NCBI GenBank assembly: GCA_001438605.1
Contig: LIDE01000019.1
Coordinates: 1 to 61,367 of the forward strand
Length of the DNA: 61,367 nt
From: SAR92 bacterium BACL16 MAG-120619-bin48
GTDB taxonomy: Bacteria > Pseudomonadota > Gammaproteobacteria > Pseudomonadales > Porticoccaceae
Direction of reading: 5' to 3'
Shown here: positions 1 through 5,033 of the stretch, piece by piece
Numbering within the stretch: position 1 is the stretch's first letter
How the letters are laid out: every line of letters starts with the position of its first letter
Program-made: the position numbers and the translations under genes
The notes under the pieces: generated by a model
What the model saw: only the letters and a program-made list of their open reading frames with translations
Database searches by the model: none
Told to the model about the DNA's origin: nothing

Positions 1-234
1 ATCCATACCTTCGCCACACTTACCTTCGCCTTTGGCCTTGTCCATGGCTTCGCCGCACTTACCTTCGCCACATTTTCCTTCGTTGTGGTGTGCTGCGAGG
101 TTATAGCCTGACTGCAATAGATCAGCTTGGAAGGGGTTTTCTGCGGCAGATAGGTTTGTCGCTGACAGTGCTGCAGTGGCAATAAACGCGGCGCTTATTG
201 CTGTGACCAGTGGTTTTGTAGTTTGATTTTTCAT
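1..234 (-). CDS. hvfA: HvfA-like RiPP metallophore precursor (3' end beyond the window)
   Basis: The reverse strand from the ATG at 234 encodes at least 78 residues and stays open at the window edge. It starts with a basic, then Ala-rich hydrophobic segment (about residues 1-32) that looks like a Sec signal peptide. A short linker and a Cys-containing repeat region follow, with EGKCGEGKCGE at about residues 54-64 and a further EGKCGEG near 73. Repeated EGKCG behind a signal peptide is the hallmark of HvfA-type precursors. In that family the cysteines are converted to copper-binding oxazolone/thioamide groups by the DUF692 (MNIO) enzyme HvfB with its partner HvfC. A ribosome-binding site GGAGAA lies 8 nt upstream. 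hvfB and hvfC, if present, should lie to the left of position 1. The family call is from motif recognition, and modification is inferred. Confidence 0.8.
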   Translation of the reverse strand, partial: MKNQTTKPLVTAISAAFIATAALSATNLSAAENPFQADLLQSGYNLAAHHNEGKCGEGKCGEAMDKAKGEGKCGEGMD

Positions 235-290
235 TCGACTTTCTCCATTGTTGGCGTGTGTTGCCAAGTTAACGTCCTTAGGTCCCGAGC

Positions 291-316
291 CACGACGGCG
301 TCCGGACAGGGGTTAG
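291..316 (-). promoter_or_regulatory. Possible ECF-sigma promoter for the hvfA-like gene
   Basis: On the minus strand CTAACC (complement of 311-316) is followed after 16 nt by CGTG (complement of 291-294). This resembles the GTAACC-N16-CGAA type of promoter that I recall for metal-responsive ECF sigma factors controlling related precursor operons. It would give a leader of roughly 50 nt before the ATG at 234. The match is short and no sigma factor gene is visible here, so this is tentative. Confidence 0.35.
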
Positions 317-383
317 ACCCAGCAATTAGTTAATAGTTTCACCCTATGTTCAGTATCTGGTTGGCCGTTCGCAAACCTGCGCG

Positions 384-3300
384 CTATATTCTGACGCGTC
401 GCAGCTGATCGTCGATCTCCTGCCAGCGTTTTTGCAGGCGTTTTAGCGACACTGGAACCCGGGTCTTTAGCTGTTGTGCAAACAAAGACACACGATATTC
501 CTCAACAAGCCAGGTAAAGTCTCGCAATGCACCTTCAATTTCAAGAGGGAGCGGCTGATCCTCTACCAAGGCCAGCTTACAAGGTGCCAGCAACTCGTGC
601 AACTCAGCGATATATTCGCGATCTTTGCTGGGTTGGCCGGCAACTTTTTCAAGCCGCACTTGAATTGCTTTTACGTATCTCGGGTACTGGGCGATCACTT
701 CGCTATTGGCTGCGGCCAGCGTATCCACAGAAAACAACCAATCGATTTGTTGGCGAATATCCTCTGCTGCGTAAATGGCCGGTAAGCCAAGAGTACGAAG
801 CTGCTTTTGCGCGGCATGAAGCGGGGTCAACAGGGACTCTATGGCGAGGCCGTAGCCTTGAGCAAGGCTAACAACCTGACCAATACCCGACTCAAATGCC
901 TGCTCGAATTGCTCTTTATCTCGGACAATTTTACCGTTTGGAAACAGCGCTTGTTGAAAACTGGCACGAATTAGCGCGTCGACAATACTCTGCCGCTCGC
1001 CTATTTTACTCGCCGTCAGCGCCAATTCCTTGCCGCGCAACAACTGCTTGCTGAGGTACTTAACTTGCTCACGACCTTTCAGCAGCATCAATCGAAGTTG
1101 CCCATCACGGCTCAAGCGCTCTGCTTGCAATGGATTGTCGATCACTTCAAGGGCGACAGACTCGCCGCAATCGCGCAGTGCTGGCCACGCCTTTATCGCC
1201 ATCTTTCCGTGAGCTAGAGCGACTTCTTGGGGTAACTCGTTAAAATCCCACTCAGTGATGCCTTGCCGCGAGGCACTTTTATCGGCCGCTTTTTCCAGTC
1301 CGCGGCTAATCTGCTGTTTAAACTCAAGCTGTAGTTTTTCCAAGCTGCGCGCCTTGGCGACAACATTTCCCCGCTCATCTTCCAGAATAAAATTCATCTG
1401 GTACCAAGGATCGAGATTCGCGCTGTTCCAGTGCTCTGGCGCGATAGAAACGCCCGTCACTCGCTGCAGATGCTCGCCTAATCTTTCCGTCAGTGGGCGA
1501 TCTTGGGCTTTCTCTTTGGCCAAGAAGCCATCAACATAGTCTGGAACAGGGACAAAGTTGCGTCGTGTCTGCTTGGGCAGACTTTTCACCAGCGCGATGC
1601 ATTTGTCCCGCAGCATGCCTGGCACGAGCCATTCAAAGAAGTATTTTGGCAACTGGTGTAGCAGGGGCAGCGGCACAACGACGCTTACACCGTCATCGCT
1701 GTGACTGGGTTCGAAATGATACTGCAGGGGGTAATTCACGCCATCGCACTCAACAGACTCTGGGAATTGCGCCTGTTCATCTTGGGAAAGGCCGCGTAGC
1801 AACAAATACTCTTTTTCGAGAAACAGTAATTTAGGCTGCTCTGCCTCTGCCTGTTTGCGCCACTTTTCAAAGGCCACAAGGTTGTAGATATCCGCTGGCA
1901 CGCGCTCATTGTAGAAGGCAAAAATTACCTGTTGCTCGGCGAGCAAGTCACGCCGACGGAAGCGATCTTCAAGGGCTTGCAGCTCTTCGACAAGCTGTTG
2001 ATTGTGCTGATAAAAGTGGCCTTTGCCACGATAGCCCTCCTCCACCAGCGCTTGTTGGATAAAAATACTGCGCGCTTCGTCTGGAGCAACTTGGCCGTAG
2101 ACACGATTTTTGTTTTCGACAATGGTTAAGCCAAACAGGGTCTGCCTCTCTTTGGCCATCACCTGACCAGACTTAACACTGTAGAAGGGTTCGCTGTAGG
2201 TTTTATTAACCAAATGGGCGGCCAATGGCTCGAGCCAATCTGAATCGATTTTTGCCACATCGAGGGCGAACTGCTTGGTCGTTTCCATTAAAGACCCGGC
2301 CATCAACCACTTTGGCGGTTTTTTACTCACACCGGAGCCTGGAAAGATAAAAAACTTGCGATTGCGCGTGCCGAGATACTCCCACTTTTCCTGAAGCATA
2401 CCGATTTGACCCAGCAGGCCAGCCAGTAGCGAGCGATGAACCGCTTCCGGCTCACTGGGCTGGGTGTTGTCAGTCAGTTTTAAGTCGCGACAGGCGCTGT
2501 GTATTTGGTGGTGCAGGTCGCGCCACTCCCGCATGCGCAGGTAAGAGACATAATTGCTTTTGCAATAGCGGCTAAATTGGTTGCTGGAGAGGGTTTGTCG
2601 CTGCTCTTCAAAGTGCCGCCAGAGATTTAACAGTGAGATAAAATCAGACTCAGGGTCCTGCCATTGCTTGTGGCATTGATCAGCCGCCTGCTGTTTGTCC
2701 GCTGGCCGCTCGCGAGGATCTTGGATACTGAGACCGGTGGTGATGATGAGCACTTCGGCGAGGCAGCTATTTTTGGCTGACTCGAGCAGCATCCGCGAAA
2801 AGCGTGGGTCCAGTGGTATATTGACCATCCGTTTGCCAAGGGGACTCAATTGGCCATCAGCAGTAACTGCCTGCAATTCTTCAAGCAATTTAAAGCCATC
2901 GCTAATCATTCGACTGTCTGGTGCGTCGACAAAGGGGAAGTTGCGAATATCGCCAATCTTTAAATGCAACATCTGCAAAATAACAGCCGCTAAGTTGGTG
3001 CGCACAATTTCCGGATCGGTAAATTCCGCTCGCGCGTTGAAATCATCTTCCCCATACAACCGGTAGCACACGCCTTCGCTGACACGGCCACAGCGGCCCG
3101 CGCGCTGATTAGCACTCGCTTGCGAGATAGGCTCAATCGGCAAGCGCTGTACTTTAGTGCGGAAGCTGTAGCGTGAAATACGTGCACGGCCAGTGTCGAC
3201 AACGTAGCGAATACCGGGCACTGTCAGGGATGTTTCAGCGACATTCGTACTCAGTACGATGCGGCAGCCACGGTGCGGCGAAAATATTTTACTCTGTTCA

Positions 3301-4304
3301 GCAAGGCTTAACCGCGCATACAGTGGAACCACTTCGGTGTGCGGTAACTGGGCGCGCTTAAGCGCAAGATTGACCTCGCGAATCTCCCGCTCACCGCTGA
3401 GAAAAATCAATATATCGCCGGGCTTTTCGTGTGCTTGAATATCTTGCACACAGTTCACAATGGTTTGATCGCGATCGCTGTCCACATCGTCGGGATCTTT
3501 ATAGATAACTGTTACGGGGAAGCTTCGTCCCGTAACTTCAACAATTGGCGCACCGTCAAAATGATTGGAAAACTTTTCTACATCGATGGTCGCAGAGGTA
3601 ATAATGATTTTTAAGTCAGGCCGCTGCGGCAGCAATTTTTTAAAGTAGCCCAGCAAAAAGTCAATATTCAGACTTCGCTCGTGCGCTTCATCAATAATTA
3701 AGGTGTCGTATTTGCTCAGAAAGCGATCGTGCTGAATTTCTGCGAGCAAAATACCGTCTGTCATCAACTTGATATAACTGTCGGGCGATGTCTGTTCAGA
3801 AAAGCGCACTTGATAGCCCACTGCACCGCCCACCTCCACCTGCAGCTCTTCGGCAATTCGGTTGGCTACAGTGCGCGCAGCGATTCTGCGAGGTTGTGTG
3901 TGGCCGATTAACCCTTTGACGCCGCGGCCCGCTTGCAGACAAATTTTCGGTAGCTGGGTGGTCTTGCCAGAACCGGTCTCGCCAGCCACAACAATGACTT
4001 GATGCTTTTGTATTAAGGCGGCAATTTCATCGGCACGGGCGCTGACGGGGAGGTCGGGAAAGCTGAATTTGGGCAGGCTCTCACTGCGCTGCTGCAGCTC
4101 GGCTTGATTACTGAGTAGCGCTGTGTGCCATTTTTCCCAATCGCGATCTATCACTTTTCCGCGCTGACTGGCCTGTTTTAGGGTAGCTAGCTGACGACTC
4201 ATACGATGACGGTTGCGGGTGGTTGTCAACGTATCGACAAGCGATTGAAGTTGCTTAAAATCACTCGCCGTCTGCGGCAGACCTCTGTTTTCGGTGTTGG
4301 ACAT
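384..4304 (-). CDS. hrpA: ATP-dependent RNA helicase HrpA
   Basis: A 1306-residue DEAH-box helicase, about the length of E. coli HrpA (1300). Walker A GETGSGKT lies near residue 108, DEAH near 203, and the QRAGRCGR helicase motif VI further on, followed by the helicase-associated and long DUF3418-type C-terminal regions. HrpA unwinds RNA and in E. coli rescues stalled or collided ribosomes. It begins 10 nt after the dnaQ stop and is probably the last gene of a run with the methyltransferase, rnhA and dnaQ. No strong terminator is seen between its stop and the hvfA-like gene. Confidence 0.97.
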   Translation of the reverse strand: MSNTENRGLPQTASDFKQLQSLVDTLTTTRNRHRMSRQLATLKQASQRGKVIDRDWEKWHTALLSNQAELQQRSESLPKFSFPDLPVSARADEIAALIQKHQVIVVAGETGSGKTTQLPKICLQAGRGVKGLIGHTQPRRIAARTVANRIAEELQVEVGGAVGYQVRFSEQTSPDSYIKLMTDGILLAEIQHDRFLSKYDTLIIDEAHERSLNIDFLLGYFKKLLPQRPDLKIIITSATIDVEKFSNHFDGAPIVEVTGRSFPVTVIYKDPDDVDSDRDQTIVNCVQDIQAHEKPGDILIFLSGEREIREVNLALKRAQLPHTEVVPLYARLSLAEQSKIFSPHRGCRIVLSTNVAETSLTVPGIRYVVDTGRARISRYSFRTKVQRLPIEPISQASANQRAGRCGRVSEGVCYRLYGEDDFNARAEFTDPEIVRTNLAAVILQMLHLKIGDIRNFPFVDAPDSRMISDGFKLLEELQAVTADGQLSPLGKRMVNIPLDPRFSRMLLESAKNSCLAEVLIITTGLSIQDPRERPADKQQAADQCHKQWQDPESDFISLLNLWRHFEEQRQTLSSNQFSRYCKSNYVSYLRMREWRDLHHQIHSACRDLKLTDNTQPSEPEAVHRSLLAGLLGQIGMLQEKWEYLGTRNRKFFIFPGSGVSKKPPKWLMAGSLMETTKQFALDVAKIDSDWLEPLAAHLVNKTYSEPFYSVKSGQVMAKERQTLFGLTIVENKNRVYGQVAPDEARSIFIQQALVEEGYRGKGHFYQHNQQLVEELQALEDRFRRRDLLAEQQVIFAFYNERVPADIYNLVAFEKWRKQAEAEQPKLLFLEKEYLLLRGLSQDEQAQFPESVECDGVNYPLQYHFEPSHSDDGVSVVVPLPLLHQLPKYFFEWLVPGMLRDKCIALVKSLPKQTRRNFVPVPDYVDGFLAKEKAQDRPLTERLGEHLQRVTGVSIAPEHWNSANLDPWYQMNFILEDERGNVVAKARSLEKLQLEFKQQISRGLEKAADKSASRQGITEWDFNELPQEVALAHGKMAIKAWPALRDCGESVALEVIDNPLQAERLSRDGQLRLMLLKGREQVKYLSKQLLRGKELALTASKIGERQSIVDALIRASFQQALFPNGKIVRDKEQFEQAFESGIGQVVSLAQGYGLAIESLLTPLHAAQKQLRTLGLPAIYAAEDIRQQIDWLFSVDTLAAANSEVIAQYPRYVKAIQVRLEKVAGQPSKDREYIAELHELLAPCKLALVEDQPLPLEIEGALRDFTWLVEEYRVSLFAQQLKTRVPVSLKRLQKRWQEIDDQLRRVRI

Positions 4305-4313
4305 GGTCTGTGA

Positions 4314-5033
4314 TCAATCGCTGTTGCGCAACCATACACAGGCCCCGCTCTTCTTGTCGATACCTTCAAGTCTCTGTTGATGCAGTGCAATCTCTGCGTC
4401 ACTGGCGCGGACAACTGTTAAGGCCGGACGATCTGCGGCAAGGCGACGAATAGCGCTCTTGCCACTAACCTCCCCCGAGTCGGATGCCTGCTGGTCACTC
4501 ATATTGAAATTGACTTGACCGCCAGTCATCAACAGATAAACGTCGGCGAGAATTTCCGCATCGAGGAGCGCGCCGTGCAAATCGCGCTGGGAGTTATCAA
4601 CGCCATAGCGTTTACAAAGCGCATCGAGATTGTTTTTTTGCCCCGGATGTTTCTGACGAGCAAGGGCAAGGGTATCAATAATGCGACAGCCGCTTTCTAT
4701 CTCGAGATATTTACCATTGAGTTTGGCAATTTCATGGTTGATAAAGCCGACGTCGAAGGGGGCATTGTGGATAATCAGATCGGCGCCATCAACAAAACTG
4801 AGAAACTCATGAACCACTTGACTAAAAACAGGTTTGTCGAGCAAGAACTCATCGGTGATTCCATGCACTTCCATGGCGCCTTCATCCACTTTTCGCTGCG
4901 GATTCACATACTGGTGATAGTGGCGGCCTGTGAGCTTGCGTCCGATAAGTTCAACGCAGCCAATTTCAATAATACGATGGTCCTGAGAGGTTTCTAAACC
5001 AGTCGTTTCTGTGTCAAGAACAATTTGTCTCAT
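4314..5033 (-). CDS. dnaQ: DNA polymerase III epsilon subunit (3'-5' proofreading exonuclease)
   Basis: A 239-residue DEDDh exonuclease. Exo I is DTETTG (D7, E9), Exo II is HNAPFD (D94 near residues 89-94) and Exo III supplies H153 and D158. The family uses these residues to hold two metal ions that remove mispaired 3' ends within the replicative polymerase core. The C-terminal tail after about residue 175 is the part that binds the alpha subunit in characterised homologs. It lies 32 bp downstream of rnhA on the same strand. The rnhA-dnaQ pair is conserved in enterobacteria too, though there the two genes are divergent. Confidence 0.97.
   Translation of the reverse strand: MRQIVLDTETTGLETSQDHRIIEIGCVELIGRKLTGRHYHQYVNPQRKVDEGAMEVHGITDEFLLDKPVFSQVVHEFLSFVDGADLIIHNAPFDVGFINHEIAKLNGKYLEIESGCRIIDTLALARQKHPGQKNNLDALCKRYGVDNSQRDLHGALLDAEILADVYLLMTGGQVNFNMSDQQASDSGEVSGKSAIRRLAADRPALTVVRASDAEIALHQQRLEGIDKKSGACVWLRNSD

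Follow-up and report, generated by a model that had tools for sequence, protein, structure and literature searches.

A captophorin/oxazolin-type copper-RiPP operon of Porticoccaceae, broken within its precursor gene, with a conserved sigma-E-like promoter and a candidate unlinked DoxX partner

We consider it very probable that the hvfA gene cut off at the left edge of the window, by which we mean the entire 61,367-nt stretch of DNA analysed here, belongs to a Porticoccaceae copper-RiPP operon hvfA-hvfB-hvfC of the captophorin/oxazolin type (HvfA, Buf_EGKCG) that was broken by the assembler within the hvfA array, and whose proposed working leads from RpoE to Cu. Family models and genome comparisons establish the identities of the genes, their place in one broken locus, the conservation of the hvfA promoter and the co-inheritance of a DoxX gene. 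With less confidence, we lean toward the broader interpretation that the copper-RiPP system of Porticoccaceae is a two-locus regulon, in which hvfABC, situated by hrpA, and a distant hvfX/doxX gene are kept or lost together and share one class of ECF promoter (probably that of RpoE), the hvfA mRNA having a structured 5' end. The peptide system itself is already known; what is new is the promoter class common to hvfA and doxX and the DoxX partner at a separate locus. EGKCG-type clusters of a marine group thereby gain a conserved promoter that can be put to the test, and genetic evidence now ties an unlinked DoxX to the system. Among the open-literature matches listed, for which no query was worded in exactly these terms, no paper described an unlinked co-regulated DoxX or the hvfA promoter in Porticoccaceae.

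One hvf locus on two contigs

The hvfA fragment (1..234, minus strand) comprises the leader and the first three EGKCG cysteines. Its open reading frame and translation place the start ATG at 234..232 on the minus strand, and the frame is still open at position 1, where it is cut by the contig end. A ribosome-binding region (AATGGAGAAAG; 239..249, minus strand) was picked out by eye. The translation, MKNQTTKPLVTAISAAFIATAALSATNLSAAENPFQADLLQSGYNLAAHHNEGKCGEGKCGEAMDKAKGEGKCGEGMD, runs from a Sec-like leader, assigned as a signal peptide by eye and homology, through NPFQADLLQSGYNLA to the repeats EGKCGEGKCGEAMDKAKGEGKCGEGMD. It exceeds the cut-off of the NCBIfam model KCGExKCG_twice (31.5 bits against 19.5), and its score of 36.1 bits against the HvfA equivalog NF050188 (cut-off 95) is expected to fall short because the scanned piece is the 5' fragment alone; a Pfam scan of the fragment gave no match. 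Together with the adjoining hvfB and hvfC genes, the first of these scores bears out the proposal of an earlier note, made from the sequence alone, that this is an HvfA-type precursor with a leader and EGKCG repeats. We compared it with homologous precursors at 89 loci, i.e. 110 (the window and L005-L113) less 13 without a usable hvfA start, seven duplicates and one with a short upstream region. The leader motif [NS]PF...GY recurs in 86 of these 89, a count that is partly by construction because the words NPF, SPF, FQT and FKT helped to place the hvfA starts. The same note had singled out AMDKAKG as an extra spacer; the string AMDK is indeed confined to the window among the 89 precursors, but MDK occurs in five others (L024, L027, L028, L057 and L102), and we reject the spacer as a sign of novelty, regarding it as an ordinary variant, one of many. 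Other insertions between EGKCG repeats, seen by eye, include an EF-hand-like stretch (L108, 3406-3979) and a long Met-rich insert (L102, 3401-3890).

The window is the whole of contig C19, one of the 111 contigs of a 2.53-Mb genome, and it ends within the EGKCG repeat array. The sole PF05114 match of this genome is found at the right-hand end of contig C8. There, the last 128 bases (G000:C8) contain the 3' portion of an EGKCG array; next comes hvfB, starting 19 bases past the last stop of the array, and then hvfC. Both are intact frames. HvfB scores 346.7 bits against PF05114 (cut-off 25) and 443.5 against the HvfB equivalog (cut-off 360), and in alignment with 3bww it keeps the motifs HGLSLS, HLS, EN.SYY, LDVNNIYVN, HIAGH, DTHG and LLERDFN. 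HvfC scores 296 bits against the HvfC equivalog (cut-off 142), is also over the cut-offs of DUF2063 and NGO1945_C, and matches 3dee at 3.4e-8. Because hvfB (MNIO/DUF692) and hvfC (DUF2063) thus adjoin the precursor, the assignment of the earlier note stands, as does, biologically, its idea of an operon running leftwards out of the window; the contig itself stops at position 1 and the rest of the operon is on C8. Of the DUF692, DUF2063 and DoxX genes that it had proposed seeking there, the first two are these C8 genes, and DoxX is encoded on yet another contig.

Directly upstream of hvfA lies hrpA, an HrpA-type helicase gene (384..4304, minus strand; named by eye) that serves as a syntenic anchor, and 3' of hvfC on C8 lie an MlaA-like and a PP2C-like gene, both likewise named by eye. 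Relatives in the genus have the order hrpA-hvfA-hvfB-hvfC-mlaA: hrpA, hvfB, hvfC and mlaA occur together in all 15 genus loci that extend far enough on either side (L005-L014, L016-L019 and L046; L015 and L020, cut by contig ends, were left out), with hvfA between hrpA and hvfB. Other Porticoccaceae and Microbulbifer have the same genes nearby at lower identity, some loci having extra DNA before mlaA. Since C19 has hrpA upstream of hvfA and C8 has the mlaA-like gene after hvfC, the contig ends represent the two halves of a single locus. An exact 31-base word within the repeat is common to both; C19 ends ...GGTATGGAT and C8 begins TGGACAAAGCC, which do not overlap cleanly, and therefore either bases are missing or alleles differ. 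This imperfect junction might be taken to mean that the halves are two different loci with two hvfA genes, a reading that the single PF05114 match, the gene order in relatives and the restriction of the exact DNA pattern GARGGNAARTGYGGNGARGG to these two contig ends in the genome make exceedingly improbable.

The C8 part of the array contains an in-frame TAG in place of a repeat lysine, reading EG*CGDGKCSEGKCGGAA*, and a degenerate KCS repeat follows. It may be a real truncation, with loss of the last three cysteines, or a consensus error at the contig end. A more drastic interpretation is that the cluster is a decaying pseudogene cluster, its precursor truncated by the TAG, in a system that is undergoing loss, as it is in roughly half of the genus. 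The stop, the degenerate repeat and the 19 of 36 genus genomes in which no hvfB orthologue was counted all speak for such decay. Against it, hvfB and hvfC are intact and over their cut-offs, the promoter element is present, at least five cysteine repeats (three from C19 and two from C8) come before the stop, in a family where the precursors of 28 Porticoccaceae relatives span 4 to 14 cysteines, and the TAG lies 78-80 bases from the C8 contig end inside the repeat (last ~80 bases of C8, L001 2378-2457), where the consensus is least reliable. Decay is thus an unlikely explanation, and we retain that of an operon broken in assembly. In 9 of 102 distinct loci (our own, G096, G037, G008, G039, L069, L083, L105 and L107, counted by hand; 102 being 30 plus 80 less 8 on the same contig) the contig ends no more than 500 bases upstream of hvfB, and in one (G062) it ends within the same distance downstream. 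This suggests that hvfA repeat arrays break assemblies, and therefore that counts of precursor genes in draft genomes may be too low, or the genes themselves cut short.

The hvfA promoter and transcript leader

A conserved-element search identified a putative sigma-E-like promoter upstream of hvfA, GAAACT-N16-GTCTAA, spanning 340..313 on the minus strand, with the -35 element GAAACT at 335..340 and the -10 element GTCTAA at 313..318. The pattern G(A/G)AAC(T/C)-N14..19-GTC occurs within 300 bases upstream of hvfA in 47 of the 89 loci, compared with a mean of 1.8 and a maximum of 6 in 200 letter shuffles and none on the reverse strand. It pairs the two elements in 27 of the 29 Porticoccaceae loci, as against 20 of the 60 others (shuffle means 0.6 and 1.3), and it recurs in 20 of the 58 loci that were unseen when the pattern was drawn (L047 onwards; shuffles 1.2). 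It was not detected in two Microbulbifer loci or in the Pseudomaricurvus locus. The pair that the earlier note had read as an ECF-like promoter, CTAACC-N16-CGTG (291..316, minus strand), is literally present, once in the window. With spacers of 15 to 17 allowed, it recurs in 1 of 89 hvfA upstream regions, namely the window's own, and we rejected it as a promoter; its CTAACC overlaps the conserved -10 (318..313).

A putative stem-loop (GTCC...GGAC; 282..307, minus strand) seems to begin a few bases past the -10, at the 5' terminus of the hvfA transcript, and its sequence varies among relatives. The first 36 leader bases of 28 Porticoccaceae fold better than their shuffles (mean z -1.85, with 12 of 28 at or below 0.05), those of 20 other loci less so (mean z -0.86, 3 of 20), and for the 36 bases that follow, folding is again a little better than in shuffles, with a mean z of -0.62 over 36 leaders. 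When 15 sequences from the genus are aligned, 85.9% of the cells of the stem are paired, compared with at most 57.9% when the partner is slid, and slid stems equal the observed number of pairs changed on both sides (3). Among 500 letter shuffles the observed value was reached 16 times for pairing, 106 for pairs changed on both sides, 3 for changed cells and 23 for the covariation score. The MAFFT alignment of 11 leaders from other Porticoccaceae genera gave no consensus fold, and an Rfam search of positions 1-500 of the window, with E up to 1, gave no match. The evidence for the stem-loop is moderate overall, but the leader of the window itself gives weak support (z -1.24, shuffle fraction 0.09).

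The unlinked DoxX gene

A DoxX (HvfX) gene is a frequent, though not a universal, member of hvf-type clusters. The source genome has none adjacent to its hvf cluster. It encodes an HvfX-like DoxX on contig C11 (doxX, G000:C11:15538-16242; L126 and L158), with GGAATTT-N16-TCTAA upstream. In 31 of the 109 loci of relatives, hvfB has near it a DoxX frame whose product is homologous to this protein (45-65% identity); judged by title or by kinship, none of the 31 is from Porticoccaceae. Precursor, MNIO, DUF2063 and DoxX genes are described in various combinations in a survey of EGKCG-type clusters (PMC12452194), and a report that leaves the function of DoxX undecided allows that such proteins may contribute to Cu binding (PMC13097082). 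At L052 and L065 (~3250-4840) a DoxX gene directly precedes an HvfB homologue, and the locus has no frame with two KCG motifs.

Across 98 Porticoccaceae genomes, 51 have both hvfB and DoxX, four hvfB only (G002, G007, G019 and G038), five DoxX only (G017, G040, G045, G058 and G097) and 38 neither; the corresponding numbers in the genus are 17, 0, 2 and 17. The association has Fisher p-values, uncorrected for relatedness, of 3.5e-17 in the 98 genomes and 2e-8 in the genus. Presence was called at E at most 1e-80 for hvfB, with the fragment in G016 added, and at most 1e-40 for DoxX, with the split gene in G062 added; lower-scoring MNIO paralogues and a broken remnant in G088 were scored as absent. 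The two genes are hundreds of kilobases or more apart in the single-contig genomes G072, G029, G030, G022 and G025, and in G014 doxX directly follows hvfB.

Upstream of doxX, 20 of 26 loci have the element GGAA(C/T)T-N16..18-TC(T/A)NA, with 0.10 in shuffles and none on the reverse strand; 26 of 28 loci were used, two without a recognisable core being left out. It was first noticed by eye in eight loci, and 12 of the remaining 18 have it. The six misses are G010 and G092, which show the near-matches GAAATT...TCTTA and GGAATC...TCTAA, and G023, G031, G058 and G014, the last being the genome in which the two genes adjoin. G058, which has DoxX without hvfB, lacks the element, and G097, an 85% complete genome without detected hvfB, keeps it. 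In several doxX upstream regions (e.g. L161, L162 and L165) a short inverted repeat flanks the -10 (GGCAA-TCTAA-TTGCC; GGCGA...CCGCC), and by eye its arms seem to change together. The source genome has just two sites that match GRAAYTW-N16-TCTAA, one ahead of hvfA and one ahead of doxX, compared with seven matches to the reversed control pattern; as the pattern was drawn from both sites, the informative part is the absence of further sites. If the two-locus regulon is true, DoxX would work at the membrane as a dedicated functional partner for the finished peptide, and would not simply be a gene that happens to adjoin the operon.

The sigma factor, the proposed working and known systems

Elements with AAC and TC are common to many ECF groups. 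The source genome has an rpoE gene over cut-off, with an RseA-like neighbour that scores 58.9 bits, below the RseA model cut-off of 263, and 28 of the 30 genus loci compared have, upstream of rpoE, an element of the GAACTW type together with GTC (shuffle mean 1.8, reverse strand 2). The E. coli sigma-E consensus is given as GGAACTT and TCAAA (PMC2893595). Measured against this consensus, which is that of E. coli, the hvfA promoter fits the sigma-E type in architecture and spacing, features that it has in common with the rpoE upstream element, and the -35 letters vary (GAAACT at hvfA, GGAATT at doxX, GAACTW at rpoE). Given the sigma-E-like hvfA element, the rpoE gene with its RseA-like neighbour and the similar element upstream of rpoE, RpoE is the best candidate for the sigma factor of the hvfA promoter, as judged by likeness of motif. 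Its presence in 38 of 39 genus genomes is non-discriminating.

It is possible, though we think it rather doubtful, that another and perhaps dedicated ECF factor, comparable to Haemophilus RpoE2 or Neisseria SigE, controls hvfABC and doxX as a small regulon. The restriction of the hvfA/doxX pattern to those two genes in the source genome would fit this, and there are precedents: in H. influenzae, a DoxX/UPF0276/DUF2063 cluster is reported to be under the control of RpoE2 after HOCl (PMC7907618), and N. meningitidis sigma-E is reported in the literature to control the NMB2140-2145 operon. We read the H. influenzae cluster, from its domain names, as the hvf cluster. Room for such a factor is also left by the scope of our own-promoter check, which took in 7 of 14 sigma region-4 matches and left out six and L124. 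Yet among the seven ECF upstream regions checked rpoE alone has the element, and two candidates for a dedicated hvf sigma factor were rejected as neither tracks hvfB. The C9 factor is present in 5 of 17 genus genomes with hvfB and 11 of 19 without it. The other, which we take to be ChrR-type from its neighbouring frame, is present in 33 of the 36 genomes of the genus; in other genera, only 4 of 38 genomes with hvfB have it (E at most 1e-40).

With RpoE as the preferred candidate, we propose the following working. RpoE, an ECF sigma factor freed from RseA on envelope stress, would start transcription at GAAACT-N16-GTCTAA. The leader of the precursor would be recognised by HvfC, and with the iron enzyme HvfB each EGKCG cysteine would be converted in the cytoplasm to a 5-thiooxazole, with loss of four hydrogens per cysteine. 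The modified peptide would then be exported by Sec, to bind and buffer Cu(I) in the periplasm. The HvfX-like DoxX, encoded elsewhere under a promoter of similar architecture, may act in the same response. The chemistry, export and Cu binding are predicted here by analogy with characterised homologues, in which HvfB with HvfC is reported to form a copper-binding 5-thiooxazole from each EGKCG cysteine with the loss of four hydrogens (PMC13097082, PMC13419390). The earlier note had named HvfB as the modifying enzyme; the oxazolone/thioamide products that it cited follow an older assignment, since revised to 5-thiooxazole in the same two reports.

The fontiphorin system (FonABC) and other captophorins resemble the present one in repeat type, enzyme pair and the 5-thiooxazole product with four hydrogens lost per cysteine (PMC13097082). 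In that report a single-repeat peptide was left unmodified by FonBC in vitro; in the present precursor, at least one EGKCG seems to stand alone, with linkers of the MDKAKG type on either side. The mmr cluster of marine Microbulbifer, which makes bulbicupramide, likewise combines an MNIO enzyme, a DUF2063 protein and an EGKCG precursor with spaced two-Cys cassettes (PMC12538549); it is a studied marine example of the copper RiPPs that the earlier note had called little studied. Its precursor is described as having 5 to 8 cysteines in EGKCG units, and the main text of that paper is without the word DoxX (PMC12538549). In both Microbulbifer loci compared here (L044 and L047) hrpA and mlaA flank hvfBC, as in Porticoccaceae, but the Porticoccaceae promoter element was not detected. 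The sigma-F-controlled MNIO operons of Caulobacter (bufferins) also place MNIO, DUF2063 and DoxX genes under a metal-responsive ECF factor (PMC3511200), but their precursor is a DUF2282 protein; the sigma-F element GTAACC-N16-CGAA resembles the motif rejected above and is not what is conserved here. The hvf operon of nontypeable H. influenzae, which yields oxazolin (HvfA, HvfB, HvfC and HvfX), is similar in its Sec leader and EGKCG repeats, its MNIO enzyme HvfB and its RRE partner HvfC (PMC13419390), and an RpoE2-linked H. influenzae cluster with the same domains responds to HOCl (PMC7907618). The Porticoccaceae system differs from it in that DoxX/HvfX is unlinked rather than inside the operon, the promoter looks sigma-E/RpoE-like and the repeats are spaced by varied linkers.
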